A stretch of DNA of 64,000 nucleotides from Terriglobia bacterium (GTDB lineage Bacteria > Acidobacteriota > Terriglobia > Terriglobales > Acidobacteriaceae). Position numbers and translations under genes: made by a program. Below are positions 4,290-35,860 of this stretch, one piece after another; position 1 is the stretch's first letter; each line of letters starts with the position of its first letter. The stretch is taken from NCBI GenBank assembly GCA_020073165.1, contig JAIQFP010000007.1:62001-126000 (forward strand), given 5' to 3'. The notes beneath the pieces were generated by a model. It was not told the origin of the DNA. It saw only the letters and a program-made list of their open reading frames with translations, and searched no databases.

Positions 4290-5165
4290 ATGGAAAATCA
4301 TAGGGACCCGAAGGCCGTAATGTCCGTCTACGGCTTTGCCGAAGAGGCGACCAAGTTTGACCTGCGTCATCCATTGTGGCATCAGCGAATGCCCCGACTT
4401 GCCCACACCATAGATTTGGCGTTCACCCGGATTCAGACGATGAACACTCCAGAAGACAAATTCGTCTATTTCTACGGCACGCTGGTGGCCGAGGATTTCA
4501 TGGAGACTCTTCTCGTAGCCGTGAACGGCTACGGCGTGGCAGCAATGAAGCTGCTGCGTTCTATGTACGAGCACACGGTCACGTTGCGTTATCTGCACGA
4601 CCATCCAGACGAGGTTGGGACGTTCATGGCCTATGACCATGTTCAACAGTACAAGCTAATGCGACCAATTGTGGAAACCTTCGGCACGGGCGTGCTGCCG
4701 TTGGAAACTGTGGCAGACGTGGAACGCAGATACGAAGAAGTGAAGAATCAGTTCATGGTTGCGGATTGCAAGAAGTGCGGCACCAAACGGGTCAATCACA
4801 CTTGGAACAAACTCGACTTCGTGGCGATGGCGAAAAAGACTGGAGCAATTGGTACGCTCATCGTTCCCGGCTACTTCTTCCCACTCCGACACGCGCACAG
4901 CACATTCCGGGCAATCACCGACAGGCTGGAGAAGAGGGACGGGCATTTGGGCTTCCAGCGAGAGTCGCAGCCGAAGTTGGCCGACGAAGCCCTCATGACG
5001 GCGCACAATTGCCTTCTCGTGACTCTGGAAATTCAGAACGAGCGATTCAAAATTGAGGGACTGGAAGCAGAGATACAGGGTTGCTTGAGTGATTGGGCAG
5101 AGATTTGGGCACCCGAGTCGCATTTGCTCATGGATGATGGAGGCTCCGGTTCGGACGTGAAATGA
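4290..5165 (+). CDS. DUF5677-like hypothetical protein
   Basis: Function unknown. The 291-residue helical protein carries LLRSMYEHTVTLRYLHDHP (about residues 86-104) followed by an AYDHVQQYKLM segment. That arrangement matches what I remember of DUF5677, a helical domain often found alone in accessory regions. A CKKCG pair near residue 160 could bind metal, though only two cysteines are obvious. It is the last plus-strand gene of the hsdS-linked run and converges on the nuclease cluster, with a hairpin between them. The family assignment is from memory and uncertain. Confidence 0.7.
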   Translation: MENHRDPKAVMSVYGFAEEATKFDLRHPLWHQRMPRLAHTIDLAFTRIQTMNTPEDKFVYFYGTLVAEDFMETLLVAVNGYGVAAMKLLRSMYEHTVTLRYLHDHPDEVGTFMAYDHVQQYKLMRPIVETFGTGVLPLETVADVERRYEEVKNQFMVADCKKCGTKRVNHTWNKLDFVAMAKKTGAIGTLIVPGYFFPLRHAHSTFRAITDRLEKRDGHLGFQRESQPKLADEALMTAHNCLLVTLEIQNERFKIEGLEAEIQGCLSDWAEIWAPESHLLMDDGGSGSDVK

Positions 5166-11797: not shown

Positions 11798-14209
11798 CTA
11801 CTGCGGCAGCCCCACCTTACGTACCAACTCAGCAAACCGTGGATCGGATCGCAGAGGATCGAGTAAGAAATCAGTCTTCAAGCCCAGTAGATAGGTATCG
11901 CGTTCCTGATAAGCGGTATTGAGCCACTGAAAAGCCTGATCTTTGTCTCCCAAGTCAGAGTATAGGTCAGCAATTTGGTATGCAGAGACATAGCCATTCT
12001 TGCGTCTAGCTTTAGCGACTTCAATGCCTTTGGTTAGAGCACCCTTCCAACCCCCTGACCGAAATCCTTGCTCGATTGCAGAGGCAAAATTAGATTCATT
12101 CTTGTCACCGGAAAGCTGACCATACGCCTTCCATTCTTCAACAACCTGAGGATACATACGTTTCCCCCAATAGCCATAGGCTAGGCAATAGTGGGCTTGG
12201 CCGAATGCCGGGTTTTCATTTGCCAACTGCCTGCATACCGCGATGCCCTCGTCGTACCGTCGTGCCGAGATGTGAACGTCCCCGATTTGCTTGCTGATGA
12301 TCGCTGATAGCGGATCGAGTTGGTGAGCGCGAGTGATTTCCGCAAGGGCTTCCTGCTCTCTACCCCCAATCGACATAAGATCATTCGCGTACCATTGGTG
12401 TGCGGTGGCATCGTCGGGATCAAGCTCGAAAGCCTTCTTGTACTCAGCTTCTCCCCCGGCAAAGTTCCAGTCGTATTCCATTTCGTTGCCGCCCAGAACA
12501 GCGTGTGGGCGAGCCAAGCTCGTGTCCAACTCCAGCGCCTTACGGGCGGCGGCATTCGACTTCAGAATATCTTCACTGAGGGGAGTGCTGCCGTAGCCCG
12601 CAGCCAATAAGACATAGGCATCAGCCAAGCCTGAGTATGCCAGAGCATAGGCGGGGTCTTTGGCAATAGCTTCGTTGAAATACGAGATTGCGGCGGTAAC
12701 GTCCGAAGGAGTTCGTTTGTTCCACAAGTAACGACCTTTCAAATACAGTTCGTAAGCTTCTGGATTGTGCGTGCCCTGTTTCGTGACCTGCTGTTTTTCT
12801 GGGCTACTGAGCTTGGAACGTAACTTTTCGGCGATGTCGCCCGCAATCTGCTGTTGCAAGGAAATGATGTCTGTGCTCTTTCCGCTATAGTGCTGCCCCC
12901 AGATTTCGGTGTTATCCCGAACGTCGGTAAGTTCGGCGCTGACTTCCACATTCTCCCCGTGCGGCGTGACTCGTCCGCTCACCAGCGCCCTCACCCCCAA
13001 GTCGTTGCCCGCCTTCTGCGCATCGACGTCCTTCCCCTTGTAGCGGAAGACGGAGTTGCGGGACTTCACCTTGAGTTCGGGTACATGCGTAAGGCTTGCA
13101 ATCAGCGATTCCGTGATGCCGTCGCTCAGGTAATCGGCATTGGCATCTCCGCTCACGTTATTGAAAGGGAGCACGGCAATCGAATCAATCTGCGATGCTC
13201 TGCTGAGACGCAAATACCAAGTGCCACCTGCCGCGAATCCGAGGACGATAATGCAGACGGCTCCAACGATCCAGAGCTTGCCGCGTTTAAGTGGCTTGTC
13301 AGCCGATGCTGGGATGCCGACCACCTTGCTGGACTCTGTGTCTCTCTTAAGCCGTTGCAAGTCGGTGCGAATCTCAGAGGCGTGTTGGTACCGGAGATTT
13401 CGATCCTTTTCCAAACACTTGTTGATGATGCGTTCCAGTTCGGCTGGCAAGTCAGGATTCAAACGTACTGCCGAGGTTGGGGTCCCATCCAGAATGGCTT
13501 TGAAGATTACACCTGAGGTTTCTCCTCGAAACGGCAAGGCTCCGGTCGCCATCTCGTAGAGCACCGCTCCAAACGAGAAGAGGTCGGTTCGGGCGTCTAG
13601 CTCCTTGGCTCGGACTTGTTCTGGCGACATGTACGCTATGGTTCCAACCGCCGAACCCGGACTGGTCAAATGCTGGGCACTGGATTCGATAGTTGCTTGC
13701 GACGTTCCTGCCGCCGCCCCCATCACGGTGCCGCTGATGGGAGTAACCTTCGCCAGTCCGAAGTCAAGAATTTTGGCATTGCCACGTTTCGTGACGAAGA
13801 CGTTTGCAGGCTTGATGTCCCGATGAACGATTCCAGCGGAGTGAGCCGCATCCAGTGCGTCGGCGATTTCGATGGCGAGGGGGAGAAGGACTTCCATTTC
13901 CAGAGGACGCCCCGCGATCCGGTGCTTCAGCGTCACACCGTCCAGAAACTCCATCGCAATGAAGGACTGGTCACCATGTTTACTGATTTCGTAGATCGTG
14001 CAGATATTGGGATGGTTGAGCGCGGAGGCGGCACGCGCCTCGCGGCGAAAGCGTTCCAACGCCTGTGGGTCTCGCGCCAGTTCATCGGGCAGGAATTTCA
14101 AAGCGACGAAGCGGCCAAGCTCGGTGTCTTCGGCTTTGTAGACGACACCCATCCCACCGCCGCCCAGCTTCTCAACAACGCGGTAGTGAGAGACGATCTG
14201 GTCGATCAT
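11798..14209 (-). CDS. Transmembrane Ser/Thr protein kinase with TolB-like and TPR regions (copy 1)
   Basis: Membrane-bound Hanks-type kinase, probably a sensor. The start at 14209 ([20 protein letters not shown]) follows the paralogues and a promoter just upstream; a longer frame to 14398 would add 63 unrelated residues. Domains in order: kinase about residues 10-290 (glycine loop [33 protein letters not shown], all present), one transmembrane helix about 320-340, a TolB/FlgO-like domain ([13 protein letters not shown], then [10 protein letters not shown]), and C-terminal TPR repeats ([14 protein letters not shown]). The 803-residue length equals copy 3. All catalytic residues are intact, so it should be active. 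It lies 246 bases downstream of copy 2 with its own promoter. Confidence 0.93.
13482..13531. repeat. 50-bp tract identical to 18536-18585
   Basis: Within the kinase domain of copy 1, 50 consecutive bases are identical to the matching stretch of copy 3, while flanking bases already differ at synonymous sites. This suggests recent gene conversion or duplication between the paralogues. Confidence 0.85.
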
Positions 14210-14233
14210 GCGTGGCGCAGGACTCAGGCTGCA

Positions 14234-14262
14234 ATAGTAAGGGCGTGAAGAAGCTGAGTCAA
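14234..14262 (-). promoter_or_regulatory. Sigma-70-like promoter of kinase copy 1
   Basis: On the minus strand TTGACT (14262-14257) and TACTAT (14239-14234) are separated by exactly 17 bases. The kinase start codon at 14209 lies about 18 bases beyond the expected transcription start. It supports the choice of 14209 as the start and separate expression of copy 1. Confidence 0.6.
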
Positions 14263-14455
14263 CGACGTACGGACGCACGCGAATGGGGTGGAAGGACTCA
14301 AAACCGAGCGGTTTTAGACTGATTCTGAGAAGCTTACCCGTCCTGTTCCAAAAGGGGTCTCCCGCAGCAGCCGCAATCGAATGATTCCATTGCGCCAAAA
14401 TTTAGAATTTGGATGGTCAGCCCGGTATACCTTTTGAGCAGTGGTGGCAAGACCT

Positions 14456-16846
14456 TTACTCAGGCAGACCCACACGGCGCAATATCTCCGAAAAGCGGGG
14501 GTCAGAATGCAGATTGTCAAGGAAAGGATCAGTCTTTAGATATACCAAGCTCCCAGAGCGTGCCTCAACTGCAATACCTAACCAGTGAAATGCTTTCTCA
14601 TTGGCATGGAGACCCGCATAGACTGACGCGATCTGGTACCCATCAACATATTTTTCGCCAGCCAATTCCTCGAACTGGGAAACAATCTTCAGCGCCTCGT
14701 CACGCTTACCAGACACAGCGTAGACATATCCGAGCCCTCCGGAAAGCAACTGATCTGTTCGAGGACTCGGAAGTTTAGGAATCTTCTGGTATTCGGCTAT
14801 CGCTTCGCTTGTCTGTCCCTTAAAGGCATAGTTCCAAGCCAGTTCCGCGTGACCGATATTGCTGTTGGGATCAAGCTCAAGCCCCTTCCTGTACCAAGGC
14901 ACTGCTTCATCAAACCTACGCGCAAGAGTGTAGATGTAGCCAAAATCCACGTTCACAATGAGCGAGAGCGGATCAAGCTCTTGCGCCCGTTTGCACTCTG
15001 CGACTGCTTCATCGAAGCGACCCATCGTGCTCAGCATGTAGCCATAATGAAAATGAGCTACGGCACTGGTTGGATTAAGCTCAATAGCACGCCTAAATTC
15101 CTTCTCTGCCGCAGACCAATCCCAGTCATACCACCAACTGACTTCCGCTAGTGCCGTGTGCGCCTCGGGCAACGAAGGATCAATATCGAGCGCCTTGAGT
15201 GCGGCAGCCCGCGCCTTAGGGAAACTTTCGTTGGGCGGGAGGAAATCAAGATTACCGAGTTCCGCGTATGCATCGGCCATGCCTGCGTATGCGGGAGCGT
15301 AGTTGGAGTCCAAGCGGATCGCCTGTTCGAAGTTCTGAATCGCTTGCTTAAGGTCATCTTCACTATCCTTGCCCCAATGGTATCTGCCCTTCAAGAACGC
15401 TTGATACGCTTCGCCACTCTCGGTATATCGCTTTGTCACTCGTTCCTTCTGTTGGCTTGTGAGCCGCCCAAGCTTGTCGGAGATGTGGTTTGCAATTTCT
15501 TCCTCTACCCTGAGCGCATCTGTGATTTTGCGATTGTATTGCTCACCCCAAAGCTGTTTGTCTTCGTGCGCATATACGAGTTCGGCGCTTACTGAAACAT
15601 CATCGCCACGCTGAACGACCCTTCCCATCACCAAGGCTTCCACGCCAAGCTCTTTCGCCACTTTTTCAGGCTCGATGTCACGCCCCTTGAAATGGAAAGC
15701 TGATGTGCGCGAGATCACTTTCATATTCGGAAGCTCCGAAAGGCGATCAATGACACCCTCCGTGATTCCATCGCTCAAGTATTCCGTGTTTGGATCGCCG
15801 CTGGCATTAGAGAAGGGCAATACAGCAACCGAGTTGATGCGCGGGCGACCGCTGCTACCAAAATAGTAGGTTGCCGCCGCTATGACCACGATTACGAAAA
15901 CGAAAGCTACCGCGCCGATCAACATCGTCCACCGTGACCAGCGGGGTTCTGCTGCAAGACGTGCTACCCCCTTGCCCGTTTCTGTGTCCCGTTTCAGCCG
16001 TTGCAGGTCAGTGCAAACTTCCGAGGCATGCTGGTAACGCAGGTTGCGATCTTTCTCCAGACACTTGCTGATGATCTCCTCCAACTTCGAGGGTGTGTCG
16101 GGATTCAATCTCACAACCGGGGCTGGCGTTCTGTTGAGGATCGACTCGAAGATAACCCCAGATGTATCTCCCCGGAATGGCAGCATGCCAGTGCACATCT
16201 CGTACAGGACTGCACCCAAAGAGAACAGGTCAGTTCGAGCGTCCAATTCCTTTCCCTTGACCTGCTCTGGGGACATGTAAGCAACGGTTCCGAGAGTCGA
16301 GCCGGGACTGGTTAATTCTTCCTCCTCCACGCTGGACTTTGTTGACTCCCCAACCGCTCCCGGGTTGGTCAGGACGGGTATCATTTTAGCCAGCCCGAAG
16401 TCGAGAATCTTGGCGTGCCCGTGCTCGGTAACGAAAATATTGGCAGGCTTGATGTCGCGGTGAACCACGCCCTTGGCATGCGCAGCATTCAAGGCATCGG
16501 CGATCTCGATGCCCAGCGATAACACAGTTTCAATCTCTAGTGGTTTTCCGGCAATGCGGTGTTTCAGTGTCGTACCTTCCAAGAATTCCATCGCGATGAA
16601 GGATTGCTCGCCATGTTTGCCGATCTCATAAATCGTGCAGATGTTCGGATGATTAAGAGCGGAAGCTGCCCGTGCCTCGCGGCGAAAACGTTCAAGCGCC
16701 TGCGGGTCTTGCGCCACATCATCGGGAAGGAATTTCAGCGCAACGAATCGCCCAAGATCGGTGTCCTCGGCTTTATAGACCACGCCCATACCACCGCCCC
16801 CGATCTTTTCGAGGATGCGGTAGTGCGAGATGGTTTGGCCGATCAT
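14456..16846 (-). CDS. Transmembrane Ser/Thr protein kinase with TolB-like and TPR regions (copy 2)
   Basis: Same plan as its neighbours in 796 residues: [20 protein letters not shown] with the glycine loop, catalytic HRDIKPAN and DFGLAK, YMSPEQ in the activation segment, a transmembrane helix around residues 315-337 ([20 protein letters not shown]), a TolB-like domain ([20 protein letters not shown]), and TPRs to the C-terminus ending LRRVGLPE. It is more diverged than copies 1 and 3 are from each other, especially in the TPR region, so it may sense a different input. It begins 11 bases after the copy 3 stop, so the two are almost certainly co-transcribed. Confidence 0.93.
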
Positions 16847-16857
16847 GATTGAGAGGT

Positions 16858-19269
16858 TTACTGCGGCAGCCCCACTTTGCGCACTAGTTCAGAAAAGCGG
16901 GGGTCGGAACGTAAGGGGTCGAGCAAGAAGTCGGTTTTTAAATCTACAAGGTATCGATCATGTTCTTGATACGCCGCATTTAGCCACGTAAATGCTTCAT
17001 CTTTGTGACCCAAATCGGAATACAGCGTGGCAATCTCATACGCAGACGAATAGCCCGTTTTGCGCTGTGCTTTGCGCAATTCGATAGCCTTGCTCAAGGC
17101 TCCATTCCAGCCCGCCGACCCAAACCCTTCTCCCAGAGCAGAAGCAAAATCGACATCCCTCTTCTCACCGGAGAGTTGCCCGAATCTCCGGAATTCTTCG
17201 ATAACGTGCGGGTACGTTCGTTTCGCCCAGTAAGCATAGGCTAAGCAACGATGCGCTACCGCAAAGGTCGGATTGTCGCTTGCCACACGCCCACACACCT
17301 GAATAGCCTGATCGTATTGGTGCATGAAGATAGCAACTTCCCCGACCGTCTCATTTGTCATTGGTGATAAAGGGTCAAGCTGGTAAGCGCGATTGGCCTC
17401 TGCGACTGCCTCTTGTTCCCGGCCGCCGATCTCGGCCAGTCCGTGTGCATGCCAGTGACGTGCTGTAGCATCGTTAGTATCAAGTTCGAACGCTCTTTTG
17501 TACTCGGCATTACTTCCGTCAAAATCCCAGTCATATTCCATCTCGTTGTCCGCAAGCACCGCGTGAGGATGAGCGAGTGAAGCATCCAACTCCAGTGCCT
17601 TCCTCGCGGCGGCGTTCGATTTCGGATACGCCTCTCGTGGGTCGGCTCCGTAGGTCGGGAACACCGAATATGCGTCGGCTAAGCCCGAATACGCCAAAGC
17701 ATAAGCGGGGTCTGCGGAAATCGCTTGGTTGAAATAGGAGATCGCGGTGTGAATGTCGGCTGGTGTGCGCTTACTCCAGTAATGTCGGCCCTTCAGGTAT
17801 AGGTCGTAGGCTGCGGGATTCTGTGTACCTTGTTTGGTGACTTGCTGTTTTTCTGAACCGCTGAGCTTGAAACGCAACTTCTCTGCAATATCGCTTGCCA
17901 TCTGCTGTTGCAAAGAGATGATGTCCGCGCTTTTGCCTCGGTATTGCTGCCCCCACATTTCGGTGTTGTCACGAACGTCCGTAAGCTCAGCACTCATTTC
18001 CATAATGTCCCCGCGCAGCACCACTCTGCCGCTCACCAGAGCGGATACGCCCAGTTCATTCCCGACCTTCTGCATGTCAACATCTTTGCCTTTGTAGCGG
18101 AAGACTGAGTTGCGCGACTTCACCCTCAACTGGGGCACGTGAGCGAGGTTACCGATCAACGATTCGGTAATACCATCGCTGAGATAGTCATTACTAGCGT
18201 CTCCACCAACGTTATTGAACGGGAGCACAGCAATGGAATCGATCTGGGTAGCCCTGCCAAGTCGCAGGTACAAAACCCCAACTGCCGCCAGCGCGATAGC
18301 CGCGATGCACGCGGCAAGGATACCCCAACCTTTGCGAGGCTTGTACGTTTGGTCAGGCGATGCTTGCACAGCAACGATCTTGGTGGACTCAGTCTGGCGC
18401 TTTAGACGCTGGAGTTCCGCTCGCATATCCGAGGCATGCTGATAACGCAAGTCGCGGTCTTTGTCCAAAGCGCGATTGATGATCCGTTCCAATTCCACTG
18501 GGAGGTCGGGGTTCAGCCGCACTGCTGACGTTGGTGTCCCATCCAGAATGGCTTTGAAGATTACACCTGAGGTTTCTCCTCGAAATGGCAATGCTCCTGT
18601 CGCCATCTCGTACAACACCGCGCCGAACGAGAACAGGTCGGTGCGAGCGTCGAGTTCTTTGCCTCGCACCTGTTCCGGCGACATGTAGGCGACGGTGCCA
18701 AGTGTCGAACCGGGACTGGTAAGGTTCTCTTCTGTGTCTATGGTCGGGGCGCTCAAAGCGACGCTCTGTGGCTTGAGGGAGACCTTAGCCAGCCCGAAGT
18801 CGAGAATCTTCGCTTGCCCTCGATTCGTCACGAAAATGTTTGCGGGCTTGATGTCCCGGTGGATGATTCCTTTCGAATGTGCGGCGTCAAGGGCGTCGGC
18901 AATCTGAATGCCCAGATCGAGCACCGTTTCGATCTCCAGCGGCTTGCCATTGATCTGATGCCGGAGTGTCTGCCCCTCCAGCAGTTCCATCGCGATGAAG
19001 GTTCGTCCATCGGACTCATCTATTTCATGGATCGTGCAGATGTTCGGGTGGTTCAGGGAGGACGCAGCCTTGGCCTCCCGCTGGAAACGGCTGAGGGCTT
19101 GTGCGTCGTTGGCGAGTTCGTCGGGCAGGAACTTGAGCGCGACGTGGCGACCTAGTTTGAGGTCTTCAGCCTCATAGACCACACCCATCCCGCCCCCGCC
19201 GATCTTGCGGAGAATGCGGTAATGGGAAACCGTCTGCCCCACGGGTTGGGAGGGCGTGAACACTGGCAA
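16858..19269 (-). CDS. Transmembrane Ser/Thr protein kinase with TolB-like and TPR regions (copy 3)
   Basis: First gene of the kinase run, 803 residues. TTG 19269 is the start as drawn; GTG 19263, two codons later, is equally possible and neither has a clear ribosome site. The kinase domain has [27 protein letters not shown] and YMSPEQ; a transmembrane helix lies near residues 318-338 ([20 protein letters not shown]); the TolB-like part reads [20 protein letters not shown]; TPRs fill the C-terminus. Much of the kinase and TolB-like parts is nearly the same as copy 1. Such kinases are abundant in Acidobacteria; their ligands are mostly unknown. Confidence 0.92.
18536..18585. repeat. 50-bp tract identical to 13482-13531
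   Basis: Second copy of the exact 50-bp tract shared by kinase copies 1 and 3; see the entry at 13482. Confidence 0.85.
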
Positions 19270-26077: not shown

Positions 26078-26851
26078 ATGAAGAGATGTGCATTTTGCCC
26101 GACCGAAGCAACCAAACTGAGCGGAGAGCACATTTGGGACGATTGGCTAAATCGGGCACTCCCCACGAAGCGATTCAAGGTTCGGCAAAAATGGAGCCGA
26201 CTTGATCCATTTAGAGAGTACGACGCTCGGATCATAAAGGAAAAGCTTCCAGTCGTATGCGAAGAGTGCAACAACACATGGATGAGCGATCTGACCAATC
26301 GCACAAAACAAGCCTTTTCGGAACTGATCGTTAACGGCACGCCCACCACTTTGCAACCTAAAGACATTGATCTTCTTGCAGCCTTCACTTTTATGAAAGC
26401 TGTGGTTGCGGATCACGCGACCGTAAAGGATGATCCGTTTTTTGTAGCGGACGTTCGAGAACAATTTCGAGGATCGTTCTCCGTTCCTTCCCACGTTCAA
26501 ATGTGGATTGCCGCGTACCAAGGGGTTTATCGGTACAGTGGAAGGTTCGTCACTAACGTTCTAACGCCAGATAAGCCCGGCCCCCTGTACGGGATCGAGT
26601 TTTACAGTTTCACGTATGTTGTCGGGCGGGTTGTCCTTCAACTTCTCGCGGCACGATGGAAAGACATACGCCACAAAGGCTATCCGCTGCCCGTCCTTAA
26701 CCCTAACGCCTACTGGAACCCGGCGGTCATCGAATTCTGGCCGAATGCAGACGCTCCCATTTCATGGCCTCCATCGAAATGGATTGGCGACGACGTGATC
26801 GAAAAGTTCATCGAACGGTTTAACGTACCAATTAACCTTAGGATCGCATGA
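26078..26851 (+). CDS. HNH-like zinc protein, first gene of a two-gene unit
   Basis: A 257-residue protein whose N-terminus looks like a treble-clef HNH domain: C4-x2-C7, GEHIW (H18), and C61-EE-C64-NNTWM. A GEHI/CxxCNN pair is typical of HNH-type nucleases and of related zinc folds that lost activity, so cleavage is plausible but unproven. The remainder (about residues 75-257) is a mixed domain of unknown type with several aromatic motifs (GRVVLQLLAARW). Its stop overlaps the next start by four bases (ATGA), implying that the two products work together. Confidence 0.75.
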   Translation: MKRCAFCPTEATKLSGEHIWDDWLNRALPTKRFKVRQKWSRLDPFREYDARIIKEKLPVVCEECNNTWMSDLTNRTKQAFSELIVNGTPTTLQPKDIDLLAAFTFMKAVVADHATVKDDPFFVADVREQFRGSFSVPSHVQMWIAAYQGVYRYSGRFVTNVLTPDKPGPLYGIEFYSFTYVVGRVVLQLLAARWKDIRHKGYPLPVLNPNAYWNPAVIEFWPNADAPISWPPSKWIGDDVIEKFIERFNVPINLRIA

Positions 26852-27424: not shown

Positions 27425-28981
27425 GTGTTGTCGCAGACTCTCTTTGTGACTGCCCTGATCCGATACGACGCTGCCCGCAAAGCCATCGCGTCCGCCTACC
27501 GTGTTGACGAGGCGAAGAAAATCCGCGACAAGGCGGAAGCAGTCAGAACTTACGCGAAATTGGCGGGCGATCTCGAAATGCAAAACATGGCTGCCGAGAT
27601 CAGAATTCGCGCCGAGCGACGTGCAGGTCAACTCCTGTCTGACATGGAGAAGAATCCCGGCACGAGGGGGGAGGGGCGACCAAGGAAGGACGGCACGAAA
27701 TTTACGCGGTCGAGCAGAACGACTGCCTACCCTCCGAAGCTAGAGGACATCGGCATCACGAAGGATCAATCTTCGAAATGGCAGCGGCTCGCGTTGCTTG
27801 TTGATGAAGGTACATTCGAAAAGGCGCTCGCCCAAGCGCGGGAGAAGAATGGCGAATTGACGAATGCGGCTCTGCTCCGCGAAATCAGAGAAATCGTTAC
27901 GCCAGTCGAAGTCTTGACGGAGCCCGATATCAATGTGGTCGCGTCAGAACTGATCCGCGACATTGAGTCGGTAAGCAGGAAGGAAAAACTGGAGACCGTA
28001 CTTCGACTCCGAAAACGGTTGAACCCCACAATCAGGAAAAAGCTCATCTTGGCATTGAAGAACTCGGCGGCGGACGTATCGGATTGCGAGGCGCAGCTTT
28101 CGAAGGATTTCAGGGATTTTCCGGTCAGCGGAAAAGCCTTCCAGCGTGTAATTCGAGAACGGATGGCCGAAGAGCCTGATCCTCTGCTGGCTGAAAAGCG
28201 TGCACTCGCAACTGATTTCAAGAATGCCAGTGTGCGAGAAATTTCCCTCGCCGACGCTAAAAACGTAATTGTCGCCCAAGAGTGGCTGGGCACGCTTGGC
28301 AGTCCCGAACACGCCTTTGGATTGTTTTTCGGCGACCATATAGCCGGAGTTGCTTGCTTTGGAAACACAGCGGGAACGAATGTCAGAGCATCGGTCTGTG
28401 GTTCCGAGCACGAAGACAAGGTGATTTCTCTCACGAGGGGCTGTTGCCTTCATTGGGCTCATCCTCATAGCGGGTCTTTTTTAGTCAGTTCAGCCTGTCG
28501 CGAAATGACGAAGAAAGGCTTCCATGTGATCGTTGCCTATGCTGATCCTGAAGCGGGCGAACGGGGAGTGATTCTGCGAGCTTGTAATTTCCTGTATTGC
28601 GGAACGACTAATCCGACTGAGAAGTTCCGCCGCCCAGACGGCAAGGTCTATGATGCACGAAACGTTCATCTCTTGACCCGTGATCGACGTTTTGGGATGC
28701 TGCGGTACAAGCGGAGCCGAGCAGAGCAGAAGAAAATCCTCATTGAAGAGGGCTGCGAGTTTTTCAAGGACACCGGGTGCAAGCATCGTTTTGTTGGGAT
28801 ATTTGGGGATCGGAGGATGAAGCGAATTCTCCGACGCGCCCTCAGGTGGGAAGTGCTGCCTTTTCCGAAGCCCGAAGCGCAACGAGCTATGGCTGCGGCG
28901 GCATCCGGAGGATCAGCGAGCATTGATCTTTCAGTGCCGCTCCAATCCACGGCAATTAGTCTTGCCGAACTGGATCACTAG
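27425..28981 (+). CDS. Phage-type protein with C-terminal Mom-like DNA-modification domain
   Basis: Two parts are visible in 518 residues. The N-terminal part (about 30-160) has RAERRAGQLLSDMEKNPG and DIGITKDQSSKWQRLALL, typical of a phage/plasmid helical domain. The C-terminal part (about 268-425) has ISLADAKNVIVAQEWLG, FGLFFGDHIAGVACFG, LTRGCCLHWA and AYADPEAGERGVILRACNFL with YCG after it. That series resembles Mom, the phage Mu GNAT-fold enzyme that makes a carbamoylmethyl adenine to resist restriction. The recognition is from memory of the family pattern. The start is uncertain (TTG 27425 or GTG 27446). It converges with the DUF3102-like gene, one base apart. Confidence 0.78.
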   Translation: MLSQTLFVTALIRYDAARKAIASAYRVDEAKKIRDKAEAVRTYAKLAGDLEMQNMAAEIRIRAERRAGQLLSDMEKNPGTRGEGRPRKDGTKFTRSSRTTAYPPKLEDIGITKDQSSKWQRLALLVDEGTFEKALAQAREKNGELTNAALLREIREIVTPVEVLTEPDINVVASELIRDIESVSRKEKLETVLRLRKRLNPTIRKKLILALKNSAADVSDCEAQLSKDFRDFPVSGKAFQRVIRERMAEEPDPLLAEKRALATDFKNASVREISLADAKNVIVAQEWLGTLGSPEHAFGLFFGDHIAGVACFGNTAGTNVRASVCGSEHEDKVISLTRGCCLHWAHPHSGSFLVSSACREMTKKGFHVIVAYADPEAGERGVILRACNFLYCGTTNPTEKFRRPDGKVYDARNVHLLTRDRRFGMLRYKRSRAEQKKILIEEGCEFFKDTGCKHRFVGIFGDRRMKRILRRALRWEVLPFPKPEAQRAMAAAASGGSASIDLSVPLQSTAISLAELDH

Positions 28982-28982
28982 A

Positions 28983-29609
28983 TCACTGGGGGAGAGGCTC
29001 AACTAGAAATCCCGCAGATACAGAATCCGCAACAGTTGTCTGCTTAACGGGCCGCAATACCACGAACCCTTCTTCGGTTTCCTTGCGATGTACCTCGAAT
29101 GAGGATGCCAGCAGATCGATAAAGCGATAGACACTCGCTGGTGTCCGCAGCACCTTGCGCAGTTTCGGTGCGAGCTTCGCCAAGATGTTTTGGATTTCCT
29201 GTTCACTCGGTTCGGTAATCTGCTCAGTGAGGCAATTCGAGTCGGATTGGAGGGACCGTTCATACTTGGCGACGAGCCGATCAGCCGTGGCTCTGGATAT
29301 GCGGTTCTGCTTTAGCCATCCGCTCCATTGCCCATTCCGGCCCGGACGGGCGAGAACCTGTTTCATCTCCGCGAGCTTCCTTCCCAGTTCGGCGCGGAGG
29401 GAGCGAAGGTTTTCTGTTTGGTTCTTGATCGTGCCTTTGTAATCGGTGTGCAACCGCCAAAGCTTCGTTATTTTCGCGCTCAGAACCGCTTCGTCCTGCG
29501 CCAGATGTTCTGGCTCTGGAGTCCGTGGTTCCGAGGGCTGTGCCGGAATCTCTGCTGCTGGGAATTCTGATACTGCGGGTGTCTGAATCTGCTCTGTTGT
29601 TTCTAACAT
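28983..29609 (-). CDS. DUF3102-like phage/plasmid protein
   Basis: A 208-residue protein. After a proline-rich, charged N-terminus (about 1-40) comes a helical block with LRSLRAELGRKLAEMKQVLA, then GRNGQWSGWLKQNRISRATA, the pattern I recall for DUF3102 and related mobile-element proteins, where the helix-turn-helix-like part could touch DNA. The C-terminal third has KLRKVLRTPASVYRFIDLLA. The role is unknown; it lies at the left side of the iteron region and might take part in replication or partition. Confidence 0.75.
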   Translation of the reverse strand: MLETTEQIQTPAVSEFPAAEIPAQPSEPRTPEPEHLAQDEAVLSAKITKLWRLHTDYKGTIKNQTENLRSLRAELGRKLAEMKQVLARPGRNGQWSGWLKQNRISRATADRLVAKYERSLQSDSNCLTEQITEPSEQEIQNILAKLAPKLRKVLRTPASVYRFIDLLASSFEVHRKETEEGFVVLRPVKQTTVADSVSAGFLVEPLPQ

Positions 29610-30221: not shown

Positions 30222-31676
30222 TCATGTGTTGCCCGCTTTCTTCTTCTCCGGTTTAATACTTCCCGTCGCCTTGGTTTTGAATGGCTCAGGCAGTTCATAG
30301 TCCAAATCGTGCTGACCCCAATCCTCCCGGATCAGGATGGGCTGCCAATCCTGCGAGTCGTCATCAGGCTCTGCAAAGACGGGGACACCGTCGTCACACA
30401 CTTCCTCGACCCGGCTATCCGCGAAGGGATCAGGAATGGGCTCAGGGCATAACTCTTCGCGTGCGTACATCTCGTTCTCTTCGGCCACATCATCCGGGTC
30501 AGCGCCGGGGTCTTCAGTACAGACTTCGGCGTGCGCCCGAAGCTCAGAGCCGAGGCTAAAAAAGCCGTAGCAGTACGGGCACTGATGATCCTCTTTCAGG
30601 TGCTCAAGGCTTTTGCCCTTCTCGGTGAGAAGCTCAAATTGATCGAGGATGGACTTAGACCGAACATAGAACTCCCGGCAGCCGGATGTCTGCGAGACCC
30701 AGATCGCCAGTTCGATTTCGGCGCGACTCGCGCCGTGATCGAGCAGGGATTGGAAGTCGGCGCTCCAATACTCCTCCCACTTGGGCAAGATCATGATCTT
30801 CTCCCCCATGGACTGCCTTCCCCGCAGGAAGAACCAGAGATACGTTGCGCAGCAACGAGCCTCTGTGAATTCAGGGATGTCGTCCAGTTCAGGTTCAGGT
30901 TCGGGTTCGGAGACAGGATCAGGATTCAGGTCATCAGGGATGGAGTCAAACTCTTCATCCTTAAGTCCAGACATCCCCATGTCCCCACAAGGGGGGGGTG
31001 GGGGCGCAGCCCCCATGGGGTTGGGGATGAATTTCCGATTTTGAATTTCGACGAAGTCGCGGTCAAGCGCAGGAGATGTCGATGCAGTTGGCTGCGCAGC
31101 AGCATTTGCAACTGCATCTCTTGCGTGACTGTCGCCGCCGAACCCCTCGCTTCGCTCTAACCCCAACCCCGTGGGGGGAGACCCCCCACACCCCCCAGCA
31201 CGGGACTCAACTCCACCACTACTCTCACCACCACCCAACGGCGTACCGCTTGTAATAACATCTACAGTGCAGCCCACTTTCCGGGGTAAGGTCGGTACCC
31301 CATTTTCTGGGGTACGGTGAACCTTCTTTTTACCGGAGCCCACTTTCTGGGGTACCGTGGGTGCGGTGCCGATCTTGATCTCGTATTCGTTGGTGTCCCA
31401 GCACCCGGTTGCCGCTCGCGCACCGATCCCGACAATCCAGCCGTACTTCGTGAGCAGCGCCTTGGCTTCATCAACAACGTTGTGGCTGATTCCGGTGTCC
31501 TTGATGATGAATTTGTGAGCGAGGCAGAGGATGTTCTTCTTGGAATGTTCCTGCCATTCGGCACGCAGGTACATGAACGACCACAGGCAATACGCCGACC
31601 GGGAGGCACGCATGAGTGCCAACATAGCCGGACGGTCTTTGTAGTTGAGTTTCTTGAAGCCTGTGCTTTCTGCCAT
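30222..31676 (-). CDS. Phage-type replication initiator-like protein (lambda O/HTH type)
   Basis: A 484-residue protein in three parts. The N-terminal 105 residues (KDRPAMLALMRASRSAYCLW, then LAHKFIIKDTGISHNVVDEA) look like the winged-helix domain of phage replication proteins. Residues about 107-135 are a repetitive linker (VPQKVG, TPENGV, LPRKVG) encoded by DNA repeats. The C-terminal half is acidic and proline-rich, with a zinc finger CPYCYGFFSLGSELRAHAEV-C near residue 400. The start at 31676 lies one base after the stop of the helix-turn-helix gene; a longer frame from 31883 only overlaps that gene. By analogy with lambda O it may bind its own gene as the origin. A transcription regulator is the alternative. 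Confidence 0.72.
   Translation of the reverse strand: MAESTGFKKLNYKDRPAMLALMRASRSAYCLWSFMYLRAEWQEHSKKNILCLAHKFIIKDTGISHNVVDEAKALLTKYGWIVGIGARAATGCWDTNEYEIKIGTAPTVPQKVGSGKKKVHRTPENGVPTLPRKVGCTVDVITSGTPLGGGESSGGVESRAGGCGGSPPTGLGLERSEGFGGDSHARDAVANAAAQPTASTSPALDRDFVEIQNRKFIPNPMGAAPPPPPCGDMGMSGLKDEEFDSIPDDLNPDPVSEPEPEPELDDIPEFTEARCCATYLWFFLRGRQSMGEKIMILPKWEEYWSADFQSLLDHGASRAEIELAIWVSQTSGCREFYVRSKSILDQFELLTEKGKSLEHLKEDHQCPYCYGFFSLGSELRAHAEVCTEDPGADPDDVAEENEMYAREELCPEPIPDPFADSRVEEVCDDGVPVFAEPDDDSQDWQPILIREDWGQHDLDYELPEPFKTKATGSIKPEKKKAGNT
31273..31354. repeat. Three intragenic repeats within the replication-like gene
   Basis: The motif CCCACTTTCTGGGGTA or a close variant occurs at 31273-31288, 31299-31314 and 31339-31354. 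The middle copy sits in a dyad, GTACCCC-7-GGGGTAC. They fall exactly in the linker after the winged-helix domain, like the iterons inside phage lambda gene O. Confidence 0.75.
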
Positions 31677-31677
31677 A

Positions 31678-31956
31678 TCAACCTTCGTCCACGGTGTTGG
31701 AGACGAGGACGAGTCCGCCCCCGCCTTGACCGTTCTCAGTTCTTTCCTGCGTTTCCACGGTGCTAATTGAAAAGCGTTCCAGCCGATCAGCCAGCACGCC
31801 CGGATCAAAACGGATCGTGTCCGCCACGCGAATCGCCAGAAGCTCGCGATTGCGGACCCAGCGTTGCACCGTGGACTCGGCAACGCCGAGCAGGTCGGCG
31901 ACCTCTCTCACATTCAAGGGCACTATTCGTCCCCTTAGTTGTTCAATCATCGACAT
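31678..31956 (-). CDS. Helix-turn-helix (excisionase/MerR-type) DNA-binding protein
   Basis: A 92-residue protein with a single helix-turn-helix of the excisionase type: LNVREVADLLGVAESTVQRW followed by VRNRELLAIRVADTIRFDPG. The start at 31956 has GAGGT about eight bases upstream and is preferred to 32067. The C-terminal 35 residues are polar and glycine-rich. It is one base upstream of the replication-like gene and probably regulates or co-acts with it. A perfect palindrome at 32020-32032 is a candidate binding site. Confidence 0.82.
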   Translation of the reverse strand: MSMIEQLRGRIVPLNVREVADLLGVAESTVQRWVRNRELLAIRVADTIRFDPGVLADRLERFSISTVETQERTENGQGGGGLVLVSNTVDEG

Positions 31957-32262
31957 TGCTCTACCTCGCTTGGGCAGGAATGAACCTGTTCGACCGCATC
32001 TGCCCTCATAAACAGCAAAGTCGAAGTTCGACAACGCATTCACCGTGTTTTTAATTTCTTCGAACATACGAAAAGTCCCAGTAGAAACCGCAAAATCACT
32101 AGCGTGCAGCCCACCAACTCACATTCGAGAAGCAGCCGCCAAAGTAGTTCCGTCGCCCTCAAGCTCTCGCGTGGCGGTCTGGACGGCGCGATAGCTGAGG
32201 ACTCTGGCATTCGCGATCTCAATCGACGCTTGCGAGTGGAGCAGCAGTGGAGTTACTCCTAG
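31957..32262. other. Non-coding leader of the helix-turn-helix/replication genes
   Basis: I see no gene supported by a ribosome site in these 306 bases; a 60-codon minus-strand frame at 32040-32222 has arginine-rich shadow-like composition. The region contains the palindrome at 32020-32032. Confidence 0.4.
32020..32032. promoter_or_regulatory. Perfect 13-bp palindrome, candidate operator
   Basis: GTCGAAGTTCGAC is symmetrical around its central G and lies 64 bases upstream of the helix-turn-helix gene start on the minus strand. It is a plausible autoregulatory site; no footprint-type evidence is available. Confidence 0.4.
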
Positions 32263-32529
32263 CTAACCCAAACCCTTCACACTCTTGAAAACACGGTCAC
32301 GAGCAACATTCCAACTGTTGCAGATTTCGATGGTGATGGTTTTCACAGGGCGTCCGATGGGCTTGAACCGTTCGACGTAAACAGAGTTGCCGCCTTCGGA
32401 CTGCGTGGCGATCAGGGTAAGTTGTCCTTTAAGCCGCTCGACAAGAGCAGGCACTTTGACTTCGAGCAGATAGGGACGTTTGATATGCGTACAATCGTTG
32501 GGCCAGATAGCACACTCGCATTTATTCAT
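32263..32529 (-). CDS. Small hypothetical protein of the phage-like operon
   Basis: Unrecognised 88-residue protein. GGAGG lies 10 bases upstream of ATG 32529. The N-terminus MNKCECAIWPNDCTHIKRPY has several cysteines and a histidine, like a small metal site; the rest is a beta-rich segment (VYVERFKPIGRPVKTITIEI) with ICNSW. It is between the Acb2-like gene and the helix-turn-helix gene in the same orientation. Confidence 0.7.
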   Translation of the reverse strand: MNKCECAIWPNDCTHIKRPYLLEVKVPALVERLKGQLTLIATQSEGGNSVYVERFKPIGRPVKTITIEICNSWNVARDRVFKSVKGLG

Positions 32530-32657
32530 CCGTTTTATCCTCCAATTCGTAGGAATCTCGTGCCTCAGGAATTTGAGCCTCCTGAGCAGGCATGTTTAAT
32601 GCCGCAACCTCAATGCAGTCGCGAAATCTGCCCAGCTTCCATGGCAGCCGGGACGTG

Positions 32658-32909
32658 TTAGCCGTTTTGTCTTGCGATCTCCGCTGGTTGCTCGTGCTCA
32701 ACTTCTGACCGGAGCACTGCGAGATACAAAAACTGCTGCGACTCTTGGAGCTTGCGCAGGCAGATCATTTGCTCAGGGCATTCCGCAGTGTTGATGACGA
32801 TATTGCCCGCCAGCTTGTAGAAAGCAGTGCCAAATTGCTTCAGCAGATCGACCTGCTCTCCTCTGAGTGCATCGTGGATGAACATCGTTTTCAGTTCGGA
32901 TTTCAGCAT
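32658..32909 (-). CDS. Acb2/Tad1-like small protein (possible cyclic-nucleotide sponge)
   Basis: An 83-residue helical protein. The start at 32909 has GGAGG eight bases upstream. Phage Acb2 proteins (about 94 residues or fewer) bind cyclic oligonucleotides of CBASS, and Tad1 proteins bind gcADPR of Thoeris; both share a helical hairpin with the pattern F-x-x-H, E-Q, small residues, N-T-x-x-C-x-x-Q and L-R-K-x-x-E. Here MFIHDALRGEQVDLL leads to GNIVINTAECPEQMICLRKL, then QES, with the same order and spacing as I remember it. The assignment is from memory and the protein lacks the usual alanine-rich last helix, so it could be a plain helical hairpin. Its place, first gene of a phage-like operon, suits an anti-defence gene. 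Confidence 0.62.
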   Translation of the reverse strand: MLKSELKTMFIHDALRGEQVDLLKQFGTAFYKLAGNIVINTAECPEQMICLRKLQESQQFLYLAVLRSEVEHEQPAEIARQNG

Positions 32910-33252
32910 TCGTATCCTCCAGTGAAGTGCATGGATAACCCCCATTCGTGTATACCGGGGTGCTGTCCGATTCGGTTAGGACCGGAAATGGCACCAAGGT
33001 GGCGGCGGGCGCATAACAGCAAGCTCGCCGCGTTCTTTGAGAATGGCACCCGGAGCCTTCCTTCTCAGGCAGAAAGAAGACGAACAAAAAGCCGAGACAT
33101 CGAGTCCCAAGCGTAGCCGGAAGCCAAACCTATTCAGTTGTCGTACGGGTGCTTGTTCGGCGACTATGTGCCTACTTCAAGCTAATAAAATAAGAAGGTG
33201 GGCGGCGGATCGATCAAGAGTAGGTGCCCACTGCGCCTGCTCCCATTCCTGC

Positions 33253-33722: not shown

Positions 33723-34256
33723 GCACAGCAGGCGCTTCAAGAGGCAGTATTAGTAGTCATGCGGTTTCTGTGATTCTGGGGGCATCCACGAACTCACAGG
33801 AACTTCATACGACCTGCATGAGTCACCACCGCCCCACAAAGCGATGGTTGGCTCAGACCCCGAATTCTGGGCGCGGACGCCGAAGTTGTCTGCAAACGGA
33901 GAGACACGGAAGGAAGCAGGCTGCACGGTCCGCCGATGCTCCGGCTAACACCGTCAGCCGACCAACTGGAGGGTGGGCGCGAGCGCCCTTGGAATTGATG
34001 TGGAGGTAGTCATGCTTGAACTCAATCGAATCGCAGTCACATTGCAATGAGTCTGTTTCCGCTGAACTGTTCTCCGACCTACTTGCGCGGAAGCCATATC
34101 TAATCCAACGCCGAATCAACAGGGGCGATAGTGGGGTTGTAAAGAGCTCCACCTTACCGAATCTGCCCAGAGTCACCGCAGATCGCGACCGTCATCGGAT
34201 ATTTAATCCGCTGCATCCTTCGGGAACCCGCCTCTTTTGTGGTTTCAGCAACATCC
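33723..34256. other. Non-coding region left of the excisionase/integrase genes
   Basis: I see no supported gene. A short GC hairpin (GGGCGC-GA-GCGCCC, 33975-33988) is present. Frames on both strands lack ribosome sites. Confidence 0.35.
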
Positions 34257-34285
34257 TGTGCCCAGACTGTGCCCGACCTGTGCCC
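34257..34285 (+). repeat. Three TGTGCCC repeats phased at 11 bp
   Basis: TGTGCCC occurs at 34257-34263, 34268-34274 and 34279-34285. The 11-bp period puts all three on one face of the helix. They lie just upstream of the excisionase start, where integrase or excisionase arm sites are expected; reverse-complement copies lie at 35665 and 35676. Confidence 0.7.
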
Positions 34286-34311
34286 AACCTGATCTTGCGG
34301 GAGGGTGCATA

Positions 34312-34533
34312 ATGTCTGCTGGCAAGAAAGAGACGCAAGTTGTCGGCGTGCCCCGCCGCCTCTATAAGGTAAAGGAAGCTGCCTACTATCTCGGAATGAG
34401 CAAGTCAAAGGTGCGACAGCTTGCGTGGACTGGCAGTCTTCCTTTCGTGCAAGACGGCGAGAATACACTGATGCTGTTCGATGTGCGCGACCTTGATCGC
34501 TGGATTGATTCCAACAAGGAAGTCATGCAATGA
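34312..34533 (+). CDS. xis: Excisionase-like helix-turn-helix protein
   Basis: A 73-residue protein with a winged-helix excisionase motif: RRLYKVKEAAYYLGMSKSKV followed by RQLAWTGSLPFVQDG and an FDVRDLDRWID tail. The start at 34312 has GGGAGGG about six bases upstream and is preferred to 34237. Its stop overlaps the integrase start (ATGA at 34530). In integrative elements such a protein steers recombination toward excision or regulates the integrase gene. Confidence 0.87.
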   Translation: MSAGKKETQVVGVPRRLYKVKEAAYYLGMSKSKVRQLAWTGSLPFVQDGENTLMLFDVRDLDRWIDSNKEVMQ

Positions 34534-35750
34534 GGCGTGAGCGGGGAACGGGCAGCATCTACCCACGCGGCGGCGTCTGGTGGATCAAATACTACAAAGA
34601 TGGCGCACCAATCCGCGAATCTTCCGGGACGACATCGAAAACACGAGCCAACAGACTTCTCCAGAGAAGATTGCGGGCCGTGTCGAGTGGTGAGCCCTTT
34701 CGCCTTGGGATGGAGAAAATCAAAGTCTGCGAGTTAGCAGAAGATTTCTTGCAAGACTATCGAATCAACAGGCTGAAGTCCCTTGACGATGCGGAGGCAC
34801 GTTGGAGGCTCCATCTCCAGAATTGGTTTGGGCATCTGCGAGCAGCATACGTTGGAACTGACACGATTAAGGGTTACATCGAGCAGCGCCAGCAAGAGGG
34901 CGGGAGCAACGGGACGATCAACCGTGAGCTCGCGGCGTTGAGACGGATGTTCTCGCTGGGCGTGAAGGCCACTCCGCCTAAGGTTTATCGTGTGCCTCCG
35001 ATAGCTAGATTGAAGGAGAACAACGTTCGGAAGGGATTTGTCACGATTGAGCGGTATGCGAAGCTCGCGGATGCTTGCTCTTCTGTAGGGCTGTGGCTGA
35101 GAACCATGCTTGAGGTCGGATACACATTTGGTTGGCGCGTGTCCGAGGTCAAGAAGTTGAAAGTTGGACAAGTTGACATGGGAAGCAGCCGAATTTTACT
35201 TGACCCCGGTACTACGAAAAATGATGACGGTCGGGTAGTGAGATTTAAGCCGGGATCGGTTCTCGCAAATCTCTTGGTAGCCTGCTGTCAGGGCAAGCAA
35301 GTGGATGATTGCTTATTCACACGAGAGGACGGGAGTCCGATTCGAGACTTCCGGACCGCATGGGCGAAGGTCTGTTGTGCCGCTGAACTAGGACAGATGG
35401 TCTGCCCGCAGTGCAGCAAGGTAGTTGACGCCAAGGGGCGTTGTGCTAAGTGCTCGGTCGAATGGAAATTCAAGGACTTGAAATATGTGGGTCTCATTTT
35501 TCACGACCTACGCCGAAGTGCGGCTCGTAATGCCCGTGCGAGTGGCGTAGCAGAAGGTGTGATTATGAAGATGGGTGGGTGGAAGACTCGCTCAGTGTTT
35601 GATCGATATGCTATTGTTGCAGAGAGCGACATGGTCGATGCCATTGAAAAAGTTGAAGCACTTCGGGCACAGATTGGGCACAATCAGCGGGAATCTGAAC
35701 CTAAAGAAGTGCAGGATCATGGATCGAGATTTAAAGGCAACTTGCAGTAA
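34530..35750 (+). CDS. int: Tyrosine recombinase / integrase with zinc-ribbon insertion
   Basis: Integrase of the phage type. The 406-residue protein has an arm-binding N-terminus (SIYPRGGVWWIKYYKDG), a core-binding domain (about 65-150) and a catalytic domain with R203 (GWRVSEV), K230, H325-x2-R328 (FHDLRRSAARN), W351 and nucleophile Y360 (FDRYAI). Between K230 and H325 there is an inserted zinc-ribbon, C292-x2-C295 and C305-x2-C308. All catalytic residues are present, so it should be active. The gene ends 22 bases before the tRNA-Leu gene, which is the likely attachment site. Confidence 0.95.
   Translation: MRRERGTGSIYPRGGVWWIKYYKDGAPIRESSGTTSKTRANRLLQRRLRAVSSGEPFRLGMEKIKVCELAEDFLQDYRINRLKSLDDAEARWRLHLQNWFGHLRAAYVGTDTIKGYIEQRQQEGGSNGTINRELAALRRMFSLGVKATPPKVYRVPPIARLKENNVRKGFVTIERYAKLADACSSVGLWLRTMLEVGYTFGWRVSEVKKLKVGQVDMGSSRILLDPGTTKNDDGRVVRFKPGSVLANLLVACCQGKQVDDCLFTREDGSPIRDFRTAWAKVCCAAELGQMVCPQCSKVVDAKGRCAKCSVEWKFKDLKYVGLIFHDLRRSAARNARASGVAEGVIMKMGGWKTRSVFDRYAIVAESDMVDAIEKVEALRAQIGHNQRESEPKEVQDHGSRFKGNLQ
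35665..35682 (-). repeat. Two GGGCACA repeats phased at 11 bp
   Basis: GGGCACA at 35665-35671 and 35676-35682 are reverse complements of the TGTGCCC repeats at 34257-34285 and keep the same 11-bp period. They lie in the last codons of the integrase gene, about 90 bases before the tRNA. Together the two sets look like the two arms of an attachment region. Confidence 0.65.
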
Positions 35751-35772
35751 CTAAAACTTTTACCTTCCACGC

Positions 35773-35860
35773 GCCGGGATGGCGGAACTGGCAGACGCAG
35801 CGGACTCAAAATCCGCCGGTGCTTAGCACCTTGGGGGTTCAACTCCCCCTCCCGGCACCA
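35773..35860 (+). tRNA. tRNA-Leu: tRNA-Leu (anticodon CAA)
   Basis: Acceptor arms GCCGGGA and TCCCGGC pair fully, followed by A and an encoded CCA. The anticodon loop CTCAAAA gives anticodon CAA (codon TTG). The D-arm (GGCGGAACTGGCAGACGC), a class II long variable arm with GGTGCTTAGCACC, and the TTCAACT T-loop are present. The gene is complete in 88 bases. The integrase gene lies at its 5-prime side. Confidence 0.95.

Follow-up and report, generated by a model that had tools for sequence, protein, structure and literature searches.

Within the window, by which we mean the whole stretch of 64,000 nucleotides analysed here, a short gene on the minus strand encodes a protein of 83 residues, called P0001, with the sequence MLKSELKTMFIHDALRGEQVDLLKQFGTAFYKLAGNIVINTAECPEQMICLRKLQESQQFLYLAVLRSEVEHEQPAEIARQNG. 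The translation contains FIH (residues 10–12), EQ (18–19), NTAECPEQ (40–47) and LRKLQES (51–57) in this order, in agreement with the preliminary description, which had given the same frame and the same succession of motifs (FIH, EQ, NTAEC-x2-Q, LRKLQES). Translation from an alternative upstream ATG would yield 95 residues, but the 83-residue start is preferred because of the Shine-Dalgarno sequence. The frame is a real gene, and it is listed together with the surrounding features in Table 1.

Table 1. Features at the hairpin-gene locus (window coordinates).
Feature	Position	Strand	Evidence and remarks
Hairpin gene, P0001 (83 aa, predicted helical hairpin)	32658..32909	-	ORF, profiles, decoys, AF2, Foldseek BFVD, 39% viral relative
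Shine-Dalgarno sequence GGAGG	32916..32920	-	Sequence; 6 nt 5' of the hairpin-gene ATG
88-aa ORF, next in the run	32263..32529	-	Sequence; own GGAGG (32539-32543)
HTH_17/excisionase-family DNA-binding protein	31678..32067	-	Pfam HTH_17 3.8e-8; TIGR01764 5.6e-7; 129 aa from first ATG, start uncertain
553-aa ORF	30222..31883	-	ORF list
208-aa ORF, end of the minus-strand run	28983..29609	-	Weak DUF3102 similarity, 2.2e-4, below Pfam cut-off
518-aa protein with C-terminal Mom-like DNA-modification domain	27425..28981	+	Pfam Mom 3.3e-21; phrog_1384 2.7e-30
Excisionase-like HTH_17 protein	34237..34533	+	Pfam, PHROG, NCBIfam
Tyrosine integrase of the element	34530..35750	+	Pfam Phage_integrase 1.4e-13; phrog_1 9.5e-39
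tRNA-Leu(CAA), attachment site	35773..35860	+	Bases 35773-35812 repeated exactly elsewhere

The hairpin gene is the first of a minus-strand run that includes a helix-turn-helix gene, as had been proposed, and this gene encodes an HTH_17/excisionase-type protein. The 88-residue frame that follows the hairpin gene has no family match in Pfam, PHROG or NCBIfam. The same holds for the 553-residue frame, which shows no significant match in these three collections, and its earlier label of a replication protein is thus a putative one. Relatives of this frame, sought as a synteny handle, were found neither in 349 class genomes nor in IMG/VR. Next to the end of the run, on the opposite strand, lies the gene of the Mom-like protein, the long N-terminal part of which matches phrog_33995. 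Relatives of Mom shield DNA from restriction.

On the other side of the hairpin gene, the integrase ends 22 bp before the tRNA-Leu(CAA) gene. The first 40 bases of this tRNA recur exactly at positions 53150–53189 of contig C26 (L180:13150-13189), which is 44,623 bp to the left. The left repeat, and hence the start of the element, is located 8.9 kb left of the window, and no second tRNA-Leu repeat was found within the window itself. Because of these exact 40-bp repeats, the window up to position 35772 seems to belong to an integrative element, either a single one or several combined into a composite. An integrase by a tRNA gene and direct repeats at both ends, the arrangement of a tRNA integrative element, are thus both present. 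The module of this ~44.6-kb tRNA-Leu element that is proximal to the integrase holds the hairpin gene and also the Mom-like gene. Partial copies of tRNA-Leu(CAA) are found 2–3 kb from the full ones in the related genomes G007 (L183) and G012 (L182), and half copies in G005 (L184), which point to this tRNA as a recurrent insertion site. Among the products of the insert in G012 is a protein distantly related (27%) to the HNH-like one encoded at positions 26078–26851 of the window.

The element contains frames that are read by eye as HsdR and HsdM, as well as a type I specificity subunit and a resolvase. The type I restriction-modification operon (HsdR, HsdM, HsdS) is apparently complete and extends from L180:18016 to position 1699 of the window, and it is flanked by DUF5677-type genes at window positions 4290–5165 and, by eye, at L180:15770-16816. 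Also within the limits of the element are three consecutive long minus-strand frames (11798–19269), which by eye look like serine/threonine kinases with C-terminal repeats. Inspection of the ORF lists of the element, of which many but not all entries were scanned, revealed no recognisable terminase, portal, capsid or tail genes. The setting, previously called a phage-like operon, appears instead to be an integrative island bounded by the 40-bp repeats. In the host genome neither a SMODS cyclase nor a ThsB_TIR gene was found, which says nothing against earlier hosts.

Since P0001 does not reach the Pfam cut-off, it is not assigned to PF24729 (Acb2_Tad1_hairpin). The Pfam scan gives no match to this family at E≤10 (the curated cut-off is 27 bits), and P0001 is also absent from the matches listed in the search of its own genome with PF24729. 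Nothing was returned by the PDB sequence search, NCBIfam or PADLOC. Searches of 399 class genomes, of GTDB contigs and of IMG/VR brought up no close homologue, and neither did those of plasmids and of phages (best E 7). In the direct hmmscan against PHROGs, phrog_5120 (E=0.011) and phrog_1761 (E=0.15) both match residues 23 to about 72. In tblastn, Ruegeria phage RpAliso supplies the best phage match with its protein RPALISO_92 (E=7), and since this protein itself belongs to phrog_1761/5120, the weak PHROGs and tblastn signals agree with each other. The family carries no annotated function. A Pfam match of P0001 to zf-CCCH_9 (E 0.1) was dismissed as chance, and the phrog_5120 matches in other class genomes, which are mostly within long open frames, were judged in the same way.

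For the profile comparisons, two alignments were considered. The first, A1, contains 34 relatives of RPALISO_92, and thus represents the phrog_5120/1761 type, a family matched in 294 of 50,697 phage records and with 554 relatives of RPALISO_92 confirmed in IMG/VR. Its consensus is QFFxYxHLPPHLQxVSxPFxxLAxxIVxxLPRNPERTVALRKLLEAKDAAVRA. The second, A2, represents the Acb2-type hairpins and consists of T4 Vs.4 (Acb2), which matches PF24729 at 7e-20, together with same-class bacterial PF24729 matches and viral relatives. Hairpins above the Pfam cut-off of PF24729 are present in three same-class genomes (L118, L119, L120).

Taken as a single comparison, hhalign of P0001 against A2 gives 91.9% over 74 columns, with a p value of about 4e-7 to 7e-7, and the value is 92.7%, with a score of 38.2, when T4 Vs.4 is left out. 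Against A1 the result is 87.4% (p 4e-6, score 32.9), and A1 against A2 gives 93.9% (score 39.2), each again as a single comparison. The top scores reached by column-shuffled decoys, 150 per comparison, are 20.5 for P0001 with A2, 18.8 for P0001 with A1 and 17.3 for A1 with A2. The HMM scores of P0001 are 16.3 bits with A2 without T4 and 21.1 bits with A1, compared to 8.2 and 9.0 bits, respectively, for the best of 1000 shuffles of P0001. With the ORFs of the window and of other loci as background, the next-best ORF of the window does not exceed 4.4 and 5.1 bits, respectively. The homology of P0001 is well supported because the observed scores are far above those of the decoys, the shuffles and the other ORFs of the window.

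A joint alignment of P0001 and its putative relatives, with Acb2-type rows included (A3), was also used. The scan with A3 identified a phrog_5120-type protein on an IMG/VR viral contig (L188) that is 39% identical to P0001 over 62 residues (36.6 bits), a similarity to the family that adds to the score with A1. A second relative was found in Novosphingobium, where it adjoins an integrase-like ORF. At L187:3743-4117 in Novosphingobium clariflavum, the phrog_5120-type hairpin forms the C-terminus of a 124-residue ORF, and an integrase-like ORF follows shortly after. The joint profile, which contains the Acb2-type rows, matches the solved 'Acb2 homolog 43' (9ptq) at 9e-6. From these sequence comparisons, P0001 is very probably a remote homologue of the Acb2/Tad1-type hairpins; a common ancestry with phrog_5120/1761, and a more distant one with the Acb2/Tad1 hairpins, is well supported.

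The two-helix hairpin fold that had been suggested for the protein is predicted by AF2 at a pLDDT of 85 when relatives are included and weakly without them. For P0001 alone, the pLDDT is 56 and two helices are formed (residues 17–35 and 47–70). With A3, the pLDDT is 84.9 and the pTM 0.71, with helices at 3–10, 20–40 and 45–71, but this model cannot serve as independent evidence of homology, because A3 includes the putative relatives and the fold is partly inherited from them. The Acb2 protomer has one short N-terminal helix and two long antiparallel ones (PMC12043709, PMC10419184), and the predicted layout of P0001, with a short N-terminal helix and two long helices, matches it. Foldseek searches with the model give nothing at E≤0.001 in either BFVD or PDB. 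The top BFVD matches have probabilities of 0.96–1.0 with E values of at least 0.018, and many of them are named 'Acb2/Tad1 hairpin domain-containing protein'. Leading the list is a protein of Dinoroseobacter phage DFL12phi1, with a TM of 0.70–0.77 at 1.8 Å. No Acb2 or Tad1 chain is among the PDB matches listed, which may be due either to the short helical query or to a true structural difference.

The best explanation, to which we assign a probability of roughly 55%, is that P0001 is an Acb2/Tad1-related hairpin that acts as an oligomer and captures a host nucleotide signal for the benefit of the element. The protein would assemble through its two long helices, and the oligomer would bind a small nucleotide-type signal of host immunity, from CBASS, Thoeris or a related system. 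If the signal is captured while the element is being established, the incoming element would not be blocked by abortive infection. This proposal builds on the gene, its homology, the predicted helical layout and the element described above. For the sponge function as such, we consider the odds to be even.

In T4 Acb2, the mutations Y8A and F82C disrupt nucleotide binding (PMC12657218). At the places of the two ligand-stacking residues of T4 Acb2, P0001 has His12 for Tyr8 and Leu66 for Phe82, and so lacks these stacking aromatic residues. Concerning the Acb2/Tad1 link drawn in the preliminary description, the remote homology holds, through the profile–profile comparisons, the decoys and the gap-free register with Acb2-type sequences, while the PF24729 match and the T4 Tyr8/Phe82 pair are missing. 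The strongest competing explanation, which we regard as quite possible if not probable, is that P0001 has the ancestral hairpin fold but has lost the signal binding and has another job, for example as a small regulator or as a partner of replication or excision proteins. In favour of this are the loss of the two aromatic residues and that of KDAAVRA, a segment which proteins of the phrog_5120 type conserve. The position of the gene next to HTH genes and the host without a detected SMODS or ThsB_TIR gene point in the same direction. However, 'Acb2 homolog 43' reads FDTH at the Tyr position, where the alignment without gaps puts Thr. Proteins given this name can therefore do without the Tyr, and the hairpin core of P0001 (LAxxI and LRKLxES) is retained.

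Returning to the signal-capturing hairpin, the altered residues of the cyclic-dinucleotide site suggest that the ligand of P0001, if there is one, differs from that of T4 Acb2. It is a tentative and rather unlikely extension of this that an island bearing restriction-modification genes, and not a phage, carries a sponge with a pocket re-shaped for a signal unlike that of T4 Acb2. If true, mobile elements that come with a defence of their own would be protected by counter-signalling as well.

Another option considered was convergence, in which P0001 is a short amphipathic two-helix protein with no kinship to Acb2/Tad1. Chance scores come easily to short helical proteins, and both Pfam and the Foldseek search of PDB are without a significant match. 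However, the shuffles and the column-shuffled decoys score far lower than the observed comparisons, the two profiles agree independently and also match each other, and the identity to the phage protein of the family extends over 62 residues, which makes this scenario improbable. Even less credible is that the frame is not expressed, or that it is what remains of an old phage gene in decay. The lack of close homologues in the genomes of the class, in the scans of GTDB and IMG/VR and in the plasmids would fit, but the frame is intact, its Shine-Dalgarno sequence is strong and it forms part of a run of intact genes.

The controlled profile comparison ties a widespread and unannotated family, phrog_5120/1761, to the Acb2/Tad1 fold, and if this link is true, the family would constitute a candidate pool of signal sponges. 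In addition, the analysis locates a putative hairpin protein of the Acb2/Tad1 type alongside the restriction-modification and Mom-like genes of an integrative element.

Finally, P0001 can be compared with the known systems. Tad1 (PDB 7uav, 8smd), which binds gcADPR, combines an N-terminal beta-sheet domain with a C-terminal hairpin. It matches P0001, via the Acb2-type profile, only in the second helix of this hairpin (RE..AL...EA), and there is no room for the beta-sheet domain in the 83 residues of P0001, whose model is all-helical and without beta strands. In Acb2 (T4 Vs.4, PDB 7uq2; PaMx33/PaP2 p26, PDB 8h2j), FxxxxxxxEQ and LxKLxEA/S occur in the same register as in P0001, the model of P0001 shares the layout of a short N-terminal helix and two long ones, and hhalign gives about 92%. 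Functional Acb2 is a homohexamer and binds cyclic di- and trinucleotides. The differences from T4 Acb2 are the His12/Leu66 replacements and the position under the Pfam cut-off. The hairpin of phrog_5120/1761 (RPALISO_92, 65 aa) matches P0001 without gaps, with the pattern F..LA..IV....P E....LRKL.E(A/S), whereas in P0001 the N-terminal F stands 4 residues further away from the hairpin, and the conserved HLP, R and KDAAVRA residues are missing. In Acb2 homolog 43, the spacing is equal to that of P0001 over 58 gap-free residues, with an identity by eye of about 22%, and the two proteins have in common that both are without the Tyr.
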